From contig CATLTV010000011.1 in the NCBI GenBank assembly GCA_950059285.1, forward strand, positions 1 through 49,986: a stretch of DNA of 49,986 nt, read 5' to 3'. Both the position numbers and the translations under genes were made by a program. Source of the stretch: an uncultured Pseudomonadota bacterium (lineage in GTDB: Bacteria > Myxococcota_A > Bradymonadia > Bradymonadales > Bradymonadaceae). Positions 38,453 to 49,480 of this stretch are shown here, piece by piece (the stretch's first letter is position 1; each line of letters opens with the position of its first letter). The notes under the pieces were generated by a model. The model was not told where the DNA came from and searched no databases. It was given only the letters and a program-made list of their open reading frames with translations.

Positions 38453-38752
38453 ATGAACATTTATCTGGATGATATTCGAACCCCCAAACAAGGCACATGG
38501 GAAATTGTGCGCACTCCTGATGAATTCAGGCAGTTAATCCAAAATACAGAGGTCATTCATAGCATTTCTTTTGATCACGATCTTGGCGAATGTGAAAGCG
38601 GCTATGACCTGATGAAATGGCTTGTCGATCAACATCTTGATGGTCACAAAGATCTCTCTGAGGTTGACGTTTACGTGCACTCAGCCAACCCCATCGGAGC
38701 CAAAAATATGCGCATGTTATGGCACAACTTCAAGAAGATGATAGGCGATTGA
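38453..38752 (+). CDS. Cyclic-phosphate processing receiver (cpRec) domain protein
   Basis: 99 aa, a single receiver-like domain. It begins NIYLDDIRTP with the acidic pair of the receiver pocket. ISFDHDLGECESGYDLMKWL gives the central Asp-His-Asp-Leu motif, and VYVHSANPIGAKNM is the conserved end strand. These features mark the cyclic-phosphate processing receiver family, predicted to act on cyclic phosphate ends of RNA or nucleotides instead of relaying phosphate. AGGA lies 9 bases before the ATG. No RNA-repair partner is visible nearby. Confidence 0.8.
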   Translation: MNIYLDDIRTPKQGTWEIVRTPDEFRQLIQNTEVIHSISFDHDLGECESGYDLMKWLVDQHLDGHKDLSEVDVYVHSANPIGAKNMRMLWHNFKKMIGD

Positions 38753-41108: not shown

Positions 41109-41453
41109 TTAGCAATGTTGTTCTCGAGCACCACAAATAAAGTTGAGGGCAAACGCGCGGAAATAGCGCTGGGTAGCGCTTTGTGGCTCATAATCCACGA
41201 TGGCATCGCGTGCGGAGGGGTCATCGTGAAGTGATAGCAATACAAGGACACGTTCATGTTGAGCAGGCCAGCTTGGTGTCTCATAGAGGTAGTGTGTAAG
41301 CTGTGTCACACTGTAATCATCACGGCGCCTTTTGAGCTGGGAGACAAACCACAAGAACCGTTCGTGTTCTGATAGGACTTTATTGGCCTCAGCGCTGACC
41401 TGTTCAACCAATCTCTTGTACTCTGTAGCGTCATTAATGTTCTTTGGGTTCAT
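41109..41453 (-). CDS. Hypothetical small cytoplasmic protein
   Basis: 114 aa, all helical in appearance (EYKRLVEQVSAEANKVLSEH, then QRYFRAFALNFICG). No signal peptide or membrane segment. AGAGAG lies 5 bases before the ATG. No family recognised. It is a single gene convergent with the beta-helix gene. Confidence 0.6.
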   Translation of the reverse strand: MNPKNINDATEYKRLVEQVSAEANKVLSEHERFLWFVSQLKRRRDDYSVTQLTHYLYETPSWPAQHERVLVLLSLHDDPSARDAIVDYEPQSATQRYFRAFALNFICGAREQHC

Positions 41454-41849
41454 GATACTCTCTACTATGTTTGGTGATGATCTTTCATCGAGTTATTCTG
41501 TTGAATGCTCAGCACTTATGCCGCCAGGGGCAGCATGTTTGAACATTTTAATTTTCGGCAAAATATGGGGAGGTGTTGCGTCAATATCCTACATTTTCGC
41601 ACATACCACTACACTTTCGATATAAAACTCATATATAACAACATGTTAAGGTGGGTTTTCTTTCTCAATAAATCGTATTTTAAGCGTCGAACAATCCCCT
41701 AAAATAGTGAATTTTTATCTAGGATGGTGGTTCTACACGGATCGTGATACAACTTTTCGGCTGGTGAACACTTATTTATAATTATGCCCCCAGTATACTT
41801 AGAACCTCACAAACGTGAGTCTTATTCATACATCCAAGGAGTTGGACTG
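41454..41849. other. AT-rich divergent intergenic region
   Basis: About 400 bases upstream of the fusion gene and the small hypothetical gene. No convincing ORF, repeat or RNA gene is seen. It presumably holds two divergent promoters. Confidence 0.4.
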
Positions 41850-43607
41850 ATGAGCGCACATAAACCTGACTTTACATTGCGTATTGGAGGCGTCCCCGAA
41901 CACTTCAACGCCCCATGGTATATCGCTCTTGAGGAGCAGGATTTTCAGGATCGACCCTACGATGTCTCCTGGACGGATTTTCCAGGTGGCACAGGAGCCA
42001 TGTGCGCGGCGTTGACCAACAAGGAAATCGATATCGCGATCCTGCTTGCTGATGGCATTACCAAGGCCATCTTGTCAGGTCATACAGCGCGCATCATTGG
42101 CACGTATGTCGACTCACCGCTGCACTGGGGCATTCACGTACACGCAGACTCAAAATTTGAACGTCCCGAGGAGCTTGCTGGGCAACACTTTGCGATTAGT
42201 CGCCATGGTTCAGGCTCGCATCTCATGGCATTTGTGGAGGCCGAGGCCAGAGGTTGGCTCTCCAAACAACAACCTCAGTTCACGCTCGTGGGTAATATTG
42301 ATGGCGCACAGGAGGCACTGGCCAACAACACGGCACAGGGATTCTTGTGGGAACGTCTGATGACACGTCATCTCATTGACTCAGGCGAGTGGCGTCAGAT
42401 TGGCGTACGCCCCTCACCGTGGCCCGCATTTTTGATTGCTGCACGTCCCGAAATTATTCAGAAGCATTCAGATATTTTGCACGATATGATGCTCGTCGTG
42501 CAGCGCCGTTGCCACGAGATGAAGGCCGCTCGTGAGCGTACACGCGCCTACATCTGTCAGCGTTTTGAATTGAGTGAAGAAGATGTGGACGGCTGGCTCG
42601 ATGAGACACGCTGGCGCTGTGCTCCAGAGGTCTCTGCCATGGCACTTGAAGACACCATCGAGACGCTTTATCGCGTCGGTGTCATCGAGAAACGTGCACG
42701 CGTCGAGGATCTTATCGCCACCAGTGTATGTGAACCAAGCCAGGTCCTCCCCGAGGCCATTTATGATCTCCGCGTTGCAGGCGTGCGTGATGCACTGTCA
42801 CGCGCAGGTCGCGCCTTTGGCACCATGCGCTACGAGGAGCTCTCCACGCTGGGTGAGTTTGATCGTTACTATGATTATGGCACGGCCTCGTGTGAAGAGG
42901 CTGCTCGACAGCTCGGGTTGCGCGATGGTCGACAGGTGCTCGAGATTGGTAGTCGCGTCGGTGCGATTGCACGTTACATCTCACACCATCATGGTTGTCA
43001 GGTCACAGGTGTTGAAATTCAACCTGCGCTTAATGCAATGGCACGTGAGCTGACCGCGCGCTGTGGCATGAGTCGTCAGGTGCGGTTTATCACGGGAGAT
43101 ATTACCTCCATCCAACTTGATCGACACGCCTACGATCACTTCATCTCACTGATGGTTGTGCTCCACCTCAAGGATCGTGTCAGTGCCTGGAAAAACGTGT
43201 TTCCTGCGCTCAAATATGGCGCCACCGTGTTGATTGAAGACCTCGTCTTACTCGACTCCAACGCGCTGAGCGATGCTCACCAGGAGCTTGCCCGCGAAGT
43301 GCTGGCTGCACCAAATCTTGTGACCACAGAGCACTACATCAGCGAGCTTGAGGAAGGCGGCCTTGTGGATGTCCATGTTCAAGACCTGACAGAAGAATGG
43401 AAGGCATGGTCTGCCGAGCGTTACGAACAGTTTGTCGCAGAGAAAGAACTACACCTGAGCATTCACGGTGTGGAGGTCTTTGAATCACGATGCCTCTTTT
43501 TACAGATTATGCGCGACTTCTTTGCCGAGGGGCTTCTTGGCAGCGCACGCTTCACCGCCCGCAAACGCGGAGAACTTGAAACACATCTTGTAGAGACACG
43601 CTCCTGA
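41850..43607 (+). CDS. Fusion of a substrate-binding-protein-like domain (Ca3427-like) with a SAM methyltransferase
   Basis: 585 aa from the ATG at 41850 (AAGGAG 8 bases upstream). There is no signal peptide, so it is cytoplasmic. Residues about 8-290 resemble type-2 periplasmic binding folds of the NMT1/SsuA or Ca3427-like kind (RIGGVPEHFNAPWYIALEEQ, FPGGTGAMCAALTNKEIDIA, AISRHGSGSHLMA). Residues about 340-560 are a class I methyltransferase with VLEIGSRVGAIARYI, a GDITSIQ motif, and LKDRVSAWKNVFPALKYGAT, close to sarcosine/dimethylglycine or MenG-type enzymes. The first domain may bind a small metabolite that the second methylates or that regulates it. The architecture is unusual; the substrate is unknown. 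Confidence 0.82.
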   Translation: MSAHKPDFTLRIGGVPEHFNAPWYIALEEQDFQDRPYDVSWTDFPGGTGAMCAALTNKEIDIAILLADGITKAILSGHTARIIGTYVDSPLHWGIHVHADSKFERPEELAGQHFAISRHGSGSHLMAFVEAEARGWLSKQQPQFTLVGNIDGAQEALANNTAQGFLWERLMTRHLIDSGEWRQIGVRPSPWPAFLIAARPEIIQKHSDILHDMMLVVQRRCHEMKAARERTRAYICQRFELSEEDVDGWLDETRWRCAPEVSAMALEDTIETLYRVGVIEKRARVEDLIATSVCEPSQVLPEAIYDLRVAGVRDALSRAGRAFGTMRYEELSTLGEFDRYYDYGTASCEEAARQLGLRDGRQVLEIGSRVGAIARYISHHHGCQVTGVEIQPALNAMARELTARCGMSRQVRFITGDITSIQLDRHAYDHFISLMVVLHLKDRVSAWKNVFPALKYGATVLIEDLVLLDSNALSDAHQELAREVLAAPNLVTTEHYISELEEGGLVDVHVQDLTEEWKAWSAERYEQFVAEKELHLSIHGVEVFESRCLFLQIMRDFFAEGLLGSARFTARKRGELETHLVETRS

Positions 43608-43766: not shown

Positions 43767-45302
43767 TCAATCGCAGTACACAATTTCTTCGCCGTTGATG
43801 TTCACAAAGACATCTTGAATGCGTCGTTGAGAGCAGCAATCATCGACGTGTGTAAGTACGATGCGGTTCTTACCCAGAGCCAGGTGTTCCACAAGGTTCG
43901 TGGTCGAACCTTGTGGGTAGTAGGCATAGGAGTTTGCATCCACAATACCTTCGGGATGCTCATCGTTGAAGATGGTGATGCGTACGCCATCATCCACGGC
44001 AAGGATTGAAATTTCAAATGTTGTAATTTCAAAGCCAGGTCTGAGCGTAAACGTTGTCTGGAAGTAGGTGTAATCGCCACCTTTTTTACAGGCACACAGA
44101 TTTGGGTCACCATCTGTAGCACCACACAATGTGGAGCGTGCATCAAAGCTGATACGGTTGTCGGTTTCGGGCATCCAACCTGCATCATTTTCAGGAGGAA
44201 TGGAGGCCATCTCATAGGCGAGAGGATCGCCGTTTCTATCATACGTGAAATCCCAACATACGGGAGGACCACCCTCGTGCATTTGCCAGGGTGTGCTACC
44301 TCCATCGAGACAAGGTGTACAACCCTCGTCGATCTCACCATCGCAGTCGTTATCAAGCCCATCGCACAGCTCGTCCATCAGGCAGTTATTACACCCCTCA
44401 TCGACCTCGCCGTCACAATCGTTGTCAATTTCATCCCCACAAACCTCACCAATTGGTACGACCGAGCCTTCACACGATCCCCACTCCTCGCCTGCACATT
44501 CACGCGAGCCATCCTTACATGCACCCACGCCACGTGTCTCGGGAGGCCCGCCGTAACAATCACCAAATGCTGAATCACAGAGGCAATATTCATCGATATC
44601 GCCATCACAGTCATTGTCCACGCCATCGCCACACATTTCGGCGGCGTCCGCAGGCACACCACATCCACCACAAGGTGCCGAGACTTGCTCATCAATGGCC
44701 CCATCGCAGTTATCATCCTCGCCATTACATACTTCAGGTGCAGGCAACACAAAGTCCTGGCATTCGCTCCATGTCCCGTTTTGACAAATCTGACTACCTG
44801 CCTTACACGACCCCTTGCCCGCTATACCCGCAGGCCCTGGATAACAGGGGCGAACCTCCTGTTCGATAACACACACGCAGCCATTATCCGCGCCACCACT
44901 GCAATCATTATCCAGGTTATCATCACAAATTTCAGTCGCGCCAGGATGTATATCAGCCATACCATCGTGACAGTCCGTGCCACCCTGACAGTTGGCATAG
45001 TAGCCATCGCCATCAAGATCTTCACAGGTTGGGTCTTGCTCAGGCGGAATGATAGGAATACTCACCGGCTGCTCAAAACCAGCATCGGCGCTGGCATCTG
45101 TGCTAGAATCTCCTCCTGCATCAGCGGTATCACCTTCCATATCAGACAACACAGGCGACATGTCCAACCTGTCTTGTGACAACATGTCGGAATTTTTTGC
45201 ATTGGAGGTCTGGTTATTTGTGGTCGTGGTATCATCGCATCCCACATTAAACAGGAGGGAGGCAATAAGTATCGGAAGCGCATGGCGTAGTGTTCGATTC
45301 AT
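43767..45302 (-). CDS. MopE-type metal-binding-repeat lipoprotein
   Basis: 511 aa. The signal peptide ends in the lipobox FNVGC (Cys22). An Asp-rich linker precedes repeats with the MopE signature: EICDDNLDNDCSGGADNGC, EVCNGEDDNCDGAIDE, EMCGDGVDNDCDGDIDEYC, EVCGDEIDNDCDGEVDEGC and LCDGLDNDCDGEIDEGC. In other bacteria these Asp/Cys modules are thought to bind metal (copper or calcium). The C-terminal 180 residues form a separate beta-rich domain (HEGGPPVCWDFTYD, FTLRPGFEITTFEISILAVD, LGKNRIVLTHVDDCC). AAGGTG precedes the ATG. It is probably surface-exposed. Confidence 0.87.
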   Translation of the reverse strand: MNRTLRHALPILIASLLFNVGCDDTTTTNNQTSNAKNSDMLSQDRLDMSPVLSDMEGDTADAGGDSSTDASADAGFEQPVSIPIIPPEQDPTCEDLDGDGYYANCQGGTDCHDGMADIHPGATEICDDNLDNDCSGGADNGCVCVIEQEVRPCYPGPAGIAGKGSCKAGSQICQNGTWSECQDFVLPAPEVCNGEDDNCDGAIDEQVSAPCGGCGVPADAAEMCGDGVDNDCDGDIDEYCLCDSAFGDCYGGPPETRGVGACKDGSRECAGEEWGSCEGSVVPIGEVCGDEIDNDCDGEVDEGCNNCLMDELCDGLDNDCDGEIDEGCTPCLDGGSTPWQMHEGGPPVCWDFTYDRNGDPLAYEMASIPPENDAGWMPETDNRISFDARSTLCGATDGDPNLCACKKGGDYTYFQTTFTLRPGFEITTFEISILAVDDGVRITIFNDEHPEGIVDANSYAYYPQGSTTNLVEHLALGKNRIVLTHVDDCCSQRRIQDVFVNINGEEIVYCD

Positions 45303-48202: not shown

Positions 48203-49480
48203 TTATATATAGTGAAAATAACCCATAAAAACCTGTCTTGGATTTAATAAAGGCTTACAATCAAAATAAGAAATATTTAAGTGCGTATTATTTCTTGTGC
48301 TTATGAATTTTAATGACTTTAAATTATTACAATTAAATATTCTATCGATGGATTTTTCTGTTAATAAATTATCATCTAATGTTAAATGTGTTACAGAATT
48401 GAGGTCTAAATTTCCTAGGATGCGTTCAACATCGCTATCTGATAATGACATGTCATCTAGCTGTAAAACTTCTAAATTTCGAAAAATATCACCTTCAGTT
48501 GAGATAATACAAGATTTATCATTACCTTGTAAAGTGATAGACTTTAAATATGAATAATTTTCAATGTAAGAACTTAATTCGTCTTTTATGTTTAAATAAG
48601 ATAATCCTACGTGCTCGATATCAGCTAGTGATTTTAATATCAGTGACAAACTAATATCATCGATTTTACAGCAAGAGATATCGAGCAATTTTACATTATT
48701 TAAATCAACATTACTACTTACTCTTATAGTTTGGTTCACAACAGATAAATTAGTTAATTTATGAACAATAAAGTCAAAATTGACATCAATATTTTTTGTA
48801 CTTTTAGTACTTAAGTTTTGAATTTCATTTCCATCTAATAAGTCTGATAATTTAGTTAGTTCATTAAATCTACAAAAATCAATATTTAATGAATTTATCT
48901 TACTATTATGAAGATAATTATTTATTTTATATTTATCTATGTTATATCCTAATGCAGATATAGTTTTTAATTCAATCAATGTATTTAAGATGTTTATAAG
49001 ATCTCTACTGACAAATTTAGAATATTCAAAGCGTATGGATTTAATAATGTTTTGATTTTGTTTTAGTATAATACTCTCAATATCATTATCGACATGCACA
49101 CCTGAAATATTGATTTTTTCTAAAGCTGAAAATGGATTGTCTGTACTTAATGGAAGTGAACTATTATTGCCATTACCACTAATATAAAGGACATTTATAT
49201 TTGACGCATTGAAGTTAAAAAATGGATTTAAACTAGGTGTTATTTTTAATCCTATATTATTAAATTGAGACAAGAATTCAAAATTTTGTTGATTATGCGG
49301 ATAATAAACAGGAACAAAAGCTTTGTTTGCTTGATGAAAGGCTCTAAACATATCTTCTGTAGAAATAAATATTTCTGCATCTTTAGTTAAAAGAGCATTG
49401 TTTCTATCATGTTCAACAATATGTTGTACAAGTGCAGGCTCAAACATATTAATGATAGATGAGGTATTATTTACTAACAT
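48203..49480 (-). CDS. Leucine-rich-repeat protein, AT-rich
   Basis: 425 aa. Repeated short units with Leu/Ile at regular spacing begin at about residue 110 (LEKINISGVHVDNDIESII, LKTISALGYNIDKYKI, LNNVKLLDISCCKIDDISL, LEVLQLDDMSLSDSDVERIL, VTHLTLDDNLLTEKSIDRIF). This is the pattern of LRR solenoids of the ribonuclease-inhibitor kind. The first 100 residues are a different, helical segment. No signal peptide. AGGA lies 9 bases before the ATG. The gene is far more AT-rich than the rest, with much Asn/Ile/Lys, indicating recent transfer. LRR proteins bind other proteins; the partner is unknown. Confidence 0.75.
   Translation of the reverse strand: MLVNNTSSIINMFEPALVQHIVEHDRNNALLTKDAEIFISTEDMFRAFHQANKAFVPVYYPHNQQNFEFLSQFNNIGLKITPSLNPFFNFNASNINVLYISGNGNNSSLPLSTDNPFSALEKINISGVHVDNDIESIILKQNQNIIKSIRFEYSKFVSRDLINILNTLIELKTISALGYNIDKYKINNYLHNSKINSLNIDFCRFNELTKLSDLLDGNEIQNLSTKSTKNIDVNFDFIVHKLTNLSVVNQTIRVSSNVDLNNVKLLDISCCKIDDISLSLILKSLADIEHVGLSYLNIKDELSSYIENYSYLKSITLQGNDKSCIISTEGDIFRNLEVLQLDDMSLSDSDVERILGNLDLNSVTHLTLDDNLLTEKSIDRIFNCNNLKSLKFISTRNNTHLNISYFDCKPLLNPRQVFMGYFHYI

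Follow-up and report, generated by a model that had tools for sequence, protein, structure and literature searches.

A CA3427-like binding fold fused to a class I methyltransferase in a putatively cytosolic protein from a Myxococcota class

A gene in the DNA stretch of 49,986 nucleotides analysed here (the window) raises the question of what a type-2 periplasmic-binding-protein fold might do in a protein that carries no export signal and continues directly into a methyltransferase. The gene is a single open frame on the forward strand, from 41850 to 43604 with the stop codon extending to 43607, whose translation gives 585 codons. As the initial annotation had proposed, this one frame joins a binding fold to a class I methyltransferase, and both halves match Pfam families. 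The sequence CAAGGAGTTGGACTGATG lies right before position 41850 and places a ribosome-binding site in front of the ATG found there. Since AAGGAG is well placed upstream of this ATG, the start was taken at 41850 and not at 41784, the position to which the mechanically derived open reading frame reaches back (Table 1). The gene is apparently monocistronic, its neighbours at 41109-41453 and 43767-45302 being on the opposite strand, and no biosynthetic cluster could be recognised around it in the window. The neighbour located directly downstream (43767-45302, reverse strand) codes for a putative lipoprotein, in which five metal-binding motifs of the MopE type (PF11617) are present.

Table 1. Location of the fused gene and of its parts in the window.
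Feature	Position	Strand	Basis
Shine-Dalgarno-like AAGGAG	41838..41843	+	read from sequence; position approximate to 1-2 bases
Fused gene, 585 aa + stop	41850..43607	+	ORF list, translation
CA3427-like type-2 periplasmic-binding-protein fold, residues ~9-295	41874..42734	+	PF22384, PDB 2x7p, AlphaFold + Foldseek
Short linker, residues ~296-308, pLDDT <50 at 301-308	42735..42773	+	alignment, AlphaFold
Class I SAM-dependent methyltransferase, residues ~305-583	42762..43598	+	Pfam, alignment to stand-alone homologues L046, L047, L032, Foldseek
Methyltransferase motif I region, residues 361-374, VLEIGSRVGA (G-x-x-x-G, not GxGxG)	42930..42971	+	alignment

Relatives were searched for in 57 genomes of the same class as the window genome and in 379 genomes sampled across the phylum. 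A fused copy is present in the window genome (G000), in G005 (locus L001), a member of the same family, and in G247 (locus L039), the latter belonging to another family of the same order. The other two fused proteins are 63% and 45% identical to the window protein from end to end, so that the fusion is distributed over three genera and two families; orthologs are thus not always encoded as two separate genes, a possibility that had been raised together with the initial annotation. The identity between fused proteins is 44-70% in the binding-protein half and 46-57% in the methyltransferase half. A scan of genome contigs gave L001 as the only match. Most genomes with relatives are draft assemblies, including those of all the fused copies, and the G247 copy is cut by a contig end, facts that would fit the spurious joining of two genes by misassembly or a frameshift. 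However, the window gene is a clean single frame with a good ribosome-binding site and with two halves that agree in G+C and GC3 (0.54/0.55 and 0.55/0.56), and the two further fused copies, which are of independent sequence, have the same junction. The chance of an open frame of 585 codons is about 4e-11, considering the base composition of the gene alone. An artefact is therefore hardly credible and was discarded: with copies of 63% and 45% identity in two further genera, the fusion is not an assembly accident.

The N-terminal half matches PF22384 (PBP2_Ca3427_like) with E=3e-12 and 47.1 bits, the curated cut-off being 27. This family is also matched by 17 of the 18 rows of the binding-protein alignment; the remaining row is a fragment of 118 residues. 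Among solved structures, its best sequence match is PDB 2x7p, the Candida albicans protein CA3427 (E=3.5e-25, residues 8-254), which is also ranked first by Foldseek for the AlphaFold prediction of the fused protein (TM 0.85 by target length), in agreement with the type-2 fold on which the initial annotation had made its proposal depend. The structure of this fungal protein was published in 2011, when the family had been reported only from Bacteroidetes and opisthokonts. Its groove contains a conserved polar cluster (E11, H12, E164, and T167), is otherwise hydrophobic, and has the length to take acyl chains exceeding 18 carbons; neither a ligand nor a function was found, and the function was called undetermined (PMC3073944).

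The alignment indicates that residues E11, H12, W88, R112, G114, G116, W163, E164, P186, W187, and W245 of the CA3427 pocket are kept in the window protein. With respect to the polar cluster, both glutamates and the histidine are maintained and T167 is replaced by methionine, as in several stand-alone members of the family. Other replacements are F166 by leucine, T61 by alanine and E62 by aspartate, the last two being shared by the window protein and L001 alone. Since most of the CA3427 pocket residues are kept, the ligand pocket of the N-terminal half is likely functional.

The absence of a signal peptide stated in the initial annotation was confirmed: there is no hydrophobic stretch at the N-terminus (the maximum Kyte-Doolittle mean over 15 residues is 0.21 within the first 45 residues), and the first strand starts at residue 9 without any preceding hydrophobic segment. 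The accompanying view that binding folds without export are rare has to be corrected: in this class, none of the stand-alone family members possesses a signal peptide, and the namesake CA3427 is fungal (PMC3073944). No signal peptide was detected in any of the copies of the binding-protein half examined, stand-alone ones included, so that lack of export is ordinary for the CA3427 family. Further type-2 binding folds that are not exported are MqnA/MqnD, HisG, Thi5, and the effector domains of LysR regulators.

A different function for this half could be that of the substrate-binding subunit of an SsuA/TauA/NMT1-type ABC importer that happens to carry a methyltransferase. Both share the type-2 binding-protein fold, profile matches and sequence similarity to SsuA are detectable though weak, and Foldseek also retrieves 2x26 and 3ksx. 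In addition, distant rhizobial homologues (about 25% identity) adjoin an ABC ATPase gene. However, SsuA/TauA/NMT1 proteins are exported and paired with an ABC ATPase and a permease, and the window protein shows neither feature: a signal peptide is missing, the neighbouring genes in the window include neither an ABC ATPase nor a permease, and no NMT1-type binding protein was matched elsewhere in the window genome. Moreover, the methyltransferase needs cytosolic SAM. The importer function is thus very improbable, and it was rejected because the export signal, the ABC partners and conserved neighbours are all missing. With respect to the latter, conserved gene neighbours in other genomes, which the initial annotation had proposed to look for, do not extend beyond congeners among the relatives in the class. 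No fused form was found on plasmids, which only carry the methyltransferase half or solute-binding proteins (SBPs) about 25% identical to the N-terminal half. One of these SBPs, at L102:3158-4921 of a rhizobial plasmid, immediately follows an ABC ATPase gene, and therefore the distant relatives of the N-terminal half appear to be transporter-linked.

The C-terminal half matches the Pfam families Methyltransf_11, Methyltransf_25, and Methyltransf_12 above their curated cut-offs. Its closest solved relatives by sequence, profile search included, are phosphoethanolamine N-methyltransferases (PMT), and the proteins retrieved by Foldseek after 2x7p are AtmM, PMT, sarcosine/dimethylglycine methyltransferase, TleD, RebM, and MitM. 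The nearest solved relatives of this half act on small molecules. PMT (PDB 5WP4/5WP5, 3UJ6) shows the same class I fold but only about 20-23% identity. The PMT substrate pair, D128 (the substrate-binding aspartate) and H132 (the catalytic histidine) in PfPMT numbering, is incomplete in the window protein: histidine is present at the position of H132, and methionine at that of D128 (SRDTILHI in 5wp4 versus SLMVVLHL). Assignment of this half as a PMT was consequently rejected. RebM, AtmM, TleD, MitM, and sarcosine/dimethylglycine N-methyltransferase (2O57), with Foldseek E values from 1e-15 to 1e-19, belong to the same superfamily of small-molecule methyltransferases but lack an N-terminal binding-protein domain.

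Motif I reads GSRVG in the window protein, GSRAG in L001, and GSGIG in both G247 and G003, the latter carrying a stand-alone methyltransferase. E389, the acidic residue that follows strand 2, is conserved, and so are D417 and further core positions. Since G-x-x-x-G motifs are found in active O-methyltransferases of the catechol type, SAM-dependent activity of this half is plausible by analogy. Catalysis is not certain, however, since the central glycine of motif I is missing from the window protein and from L001, to which it is most closely related.

The initial annotation had described the fusion as direct, which is borne out, and had placed a linker at about residues 290-340, which is not. 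Stand-alone binding proteins end near residue 295 of the fusion, and alignment with the stand-alone methyltransferase L046 (from G003) and with L047, the methyltransferase of the two-gene form in G006, assigns the residues from about 303 on (AIYDLRVAGVRDAL...; MYGWRVRGIRRAL; MYEWRMTCRRKAQ) to the methyltransferase. Residues 305-345, approximately, form helices that belong to the N-terminus of the methyltransferase and are present in stand-alone homologues too, so that the actual length of the linker is about 8-10 residues. The AlphaFold model of the fused protein, obtained with a 24-row alignment, has a mean pLDDT of 89.6; both halves are well folded and the sole low stretch is 301-308. The model of the 63%-identical relative (pLDDT 88.8) is low at 310-315 and in the N-terminal tail. 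Since pTM is 0.62 in both models, the domain arrangement is not confidently fixed. Taken together, sequence and models predict a cytosolic two-domain protein, in which a CA3427-type Venus-flytrap domain is covalently joined by a linker of 8-10 residues to a PMT/RebM-like class I methyltransferase.

A relative of either half is present in 18 of the 57 genomes of the class. Three of them contain the fused gene, one (G006) contains two genes, G003 possesses the methyltransferase alone, and the other 13 possess the binding protein alone. Across the 379 genomes of the phylum, PF22384 is found only in this class, in 17 genomes and always as a single copy. In G006, the halves are encoded by two genes overlapping by 8 nt, the TGA stop codon of the binding-protein gene and the ATG of the methyltransferase gene sharing ATGTATGA. 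The tail of this binding protein and the start of the methyltransferase correspond to the fusion junction. In G006 the binding-protein gene lies on two contigs, and a frameshift introduced by sequencing may conceivably account for the two-gene form. The coexistence of fused forms and an overlapping, operon-like split form represents a Rosetta-stone pattern. In the 13 genomes with stand-alone binding-protein genes, no methyltransferase, either hidden or decayed, was found within 3 kb downstream. The apparent read-through of some of these genes into a methyltransferase was due to spurious match extensions.

As to the history of the fusion, the methyltransferase halves of the fused proteins group into a single clade (95/80), next to which G003 is placed, G006 being outside; together, the fused clade, G003, and G006 are set apart from other Myxococcota methyltransferases (99/96). 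Resolution is poor in the binding-protein tree, which does not recover a single clade of fused copies. For instance, the binding-protein half of the fused G247 protein is nearest to the stand-alone protein of G279, a member of its own family (56% identity). Constraining the three fused copies to group in this tree has a cost of 17 log units (AU p=0.057; p=0.037 if G006 is added). Since the methyltransferase tree favours a single origin and the binding-protein tree is unresolved, one fusion with later losses and two fusions are both possible.

Two adjacent genes might also have merged neutrally into one frame, their products being uncoupled and having unrelated jobs. The partner is indeed missing in most relatives and a fixed interdomain arrangement is not predicted. 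However, the fusion has persisted between genera at 45-63% identity with both halves conserved, the split form of G006 is still an overlapping pair, and the fused methyltransferases constitute one supported clade. A neutral merger is thus rather improbable.

The explanation tentatively preferred, whose probability falls somewhat short of even, is that the flytrap domain binds a cytosolic small molecule linked to the methyltransferase and that the fusion couples its capture with SAM-dependent methylation. The ligand could be extended and hydrophobic or amphipathic, as proposed for CA3427, and might be the substrate of the methyltransferase, a precursor, or a feedback ligand. By holding ligand capture and methylation together, the fusion would provide either substrate supply or ligand gating. 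The "substrate capture or allosteric control" suggested in the initial annotation is a reasonable possibility in view of the fusion. The occurrence of the fusion in three genera, the overlapping pair of G006, and the conservation of both halves and of the pocket are points in favour of coupling. Against it, 13 of the 17 genomes with the binding-protein half lack a methyltransferase beside it, G003 has the methyltransferase alone, motif I lacks its central glycine, the two models (pTM 0.62) do not fix the domain arrangement with confidence, and the fused binding-protein halves do not come out as one clade in their tree. The 13 genomes that keep the N-terminal half with no partner beside it indicate that this half works on its own, which weakens the claim that gating a methyltransferase is its main role.

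The strongest rival to coupled capture and methylation is that the CA3427-like half has an enzymatic function of its own, the fusion being a bifunctional protein that would catalyse two neighbouring steps of a pathway, the second one a methylation. Some unexported type-2 binding folds, such as Thi5 and MqnA/MqnD, are enzymes. The polar pocket residues E17, H18, E168, and R118 (window numbering) are near-invariant across the family, the protein is not exported and has no recognised transporter partner, and most relatives retain a stand-alone copy, which would fit an enzyme. However, H18 is replaced by Q or N in three family members, the fused G247 copy among them, and CCCFC, the iron-binding motif of the Thi5/NMT1 HMP-P synthase, is absent from the 585-residue fused protein, which consequently does not belong with that synthase. 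In addition, the authors of the CA3427 structure observed neither the geometry of a hydrolase triad nor any activity (PMC3073944). An enzymatic N-terminal half is thus unlikely, although a serious contender.

Each half belongs to a known kind. Literature searches for the combination of a binding protein and a methyltransferase returned no described system, as the initial annotation had anticipated, and this architecture of known domains is provisionally regarded as new. The N-terminal half shares with CA3427 (PDB 2X7P/2X7Q; PF22384) the family, the fold, and most binding-site residues, and CA3427 is likewise without an assigned function or ligand; unlike the window protein, neither CA3427 nor the stand-alone relatives found here carry a methyltransferase. 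For a family whose structure was solved by 2011 but which still lacks a ligand and a function, the fusion is a first clue to its role: the methyltransferase, fused or encoded by the overlapping gene, is the first partner seen here, and it turns the function of the family into a testable question. The range of the CA3427 family is also extended to a Myxococcota class. A more specific version of capture coupled to methylation, possible but doubtful, is that these proteins represent a lineage of ligand-gated cytosolic methyltransferases in which the flytrap domain senses a metabolite or delivers it to the attached enzyme. If so, identifying the substrate of the attached enzyme would at the same time disclose what the CA3427 proteins of fungi and bacteria bind.

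Two other genes of the window deserve mention. The region 38453-38752 (forward strand) codes for a 99-residue stand-alone receiver domain of the cREC_REC type (PF20274, cyclic-phosphate processing). The region 48203-49480 (reverse strand) codes for a Leu/Asn-rich, LRR-like protein of 425 residues without any Pfam match. Its G+C content is 25% (GC3 17%), versus about 40-55% elsewhere in the window, and it therefore looks like recently acquired DNA.
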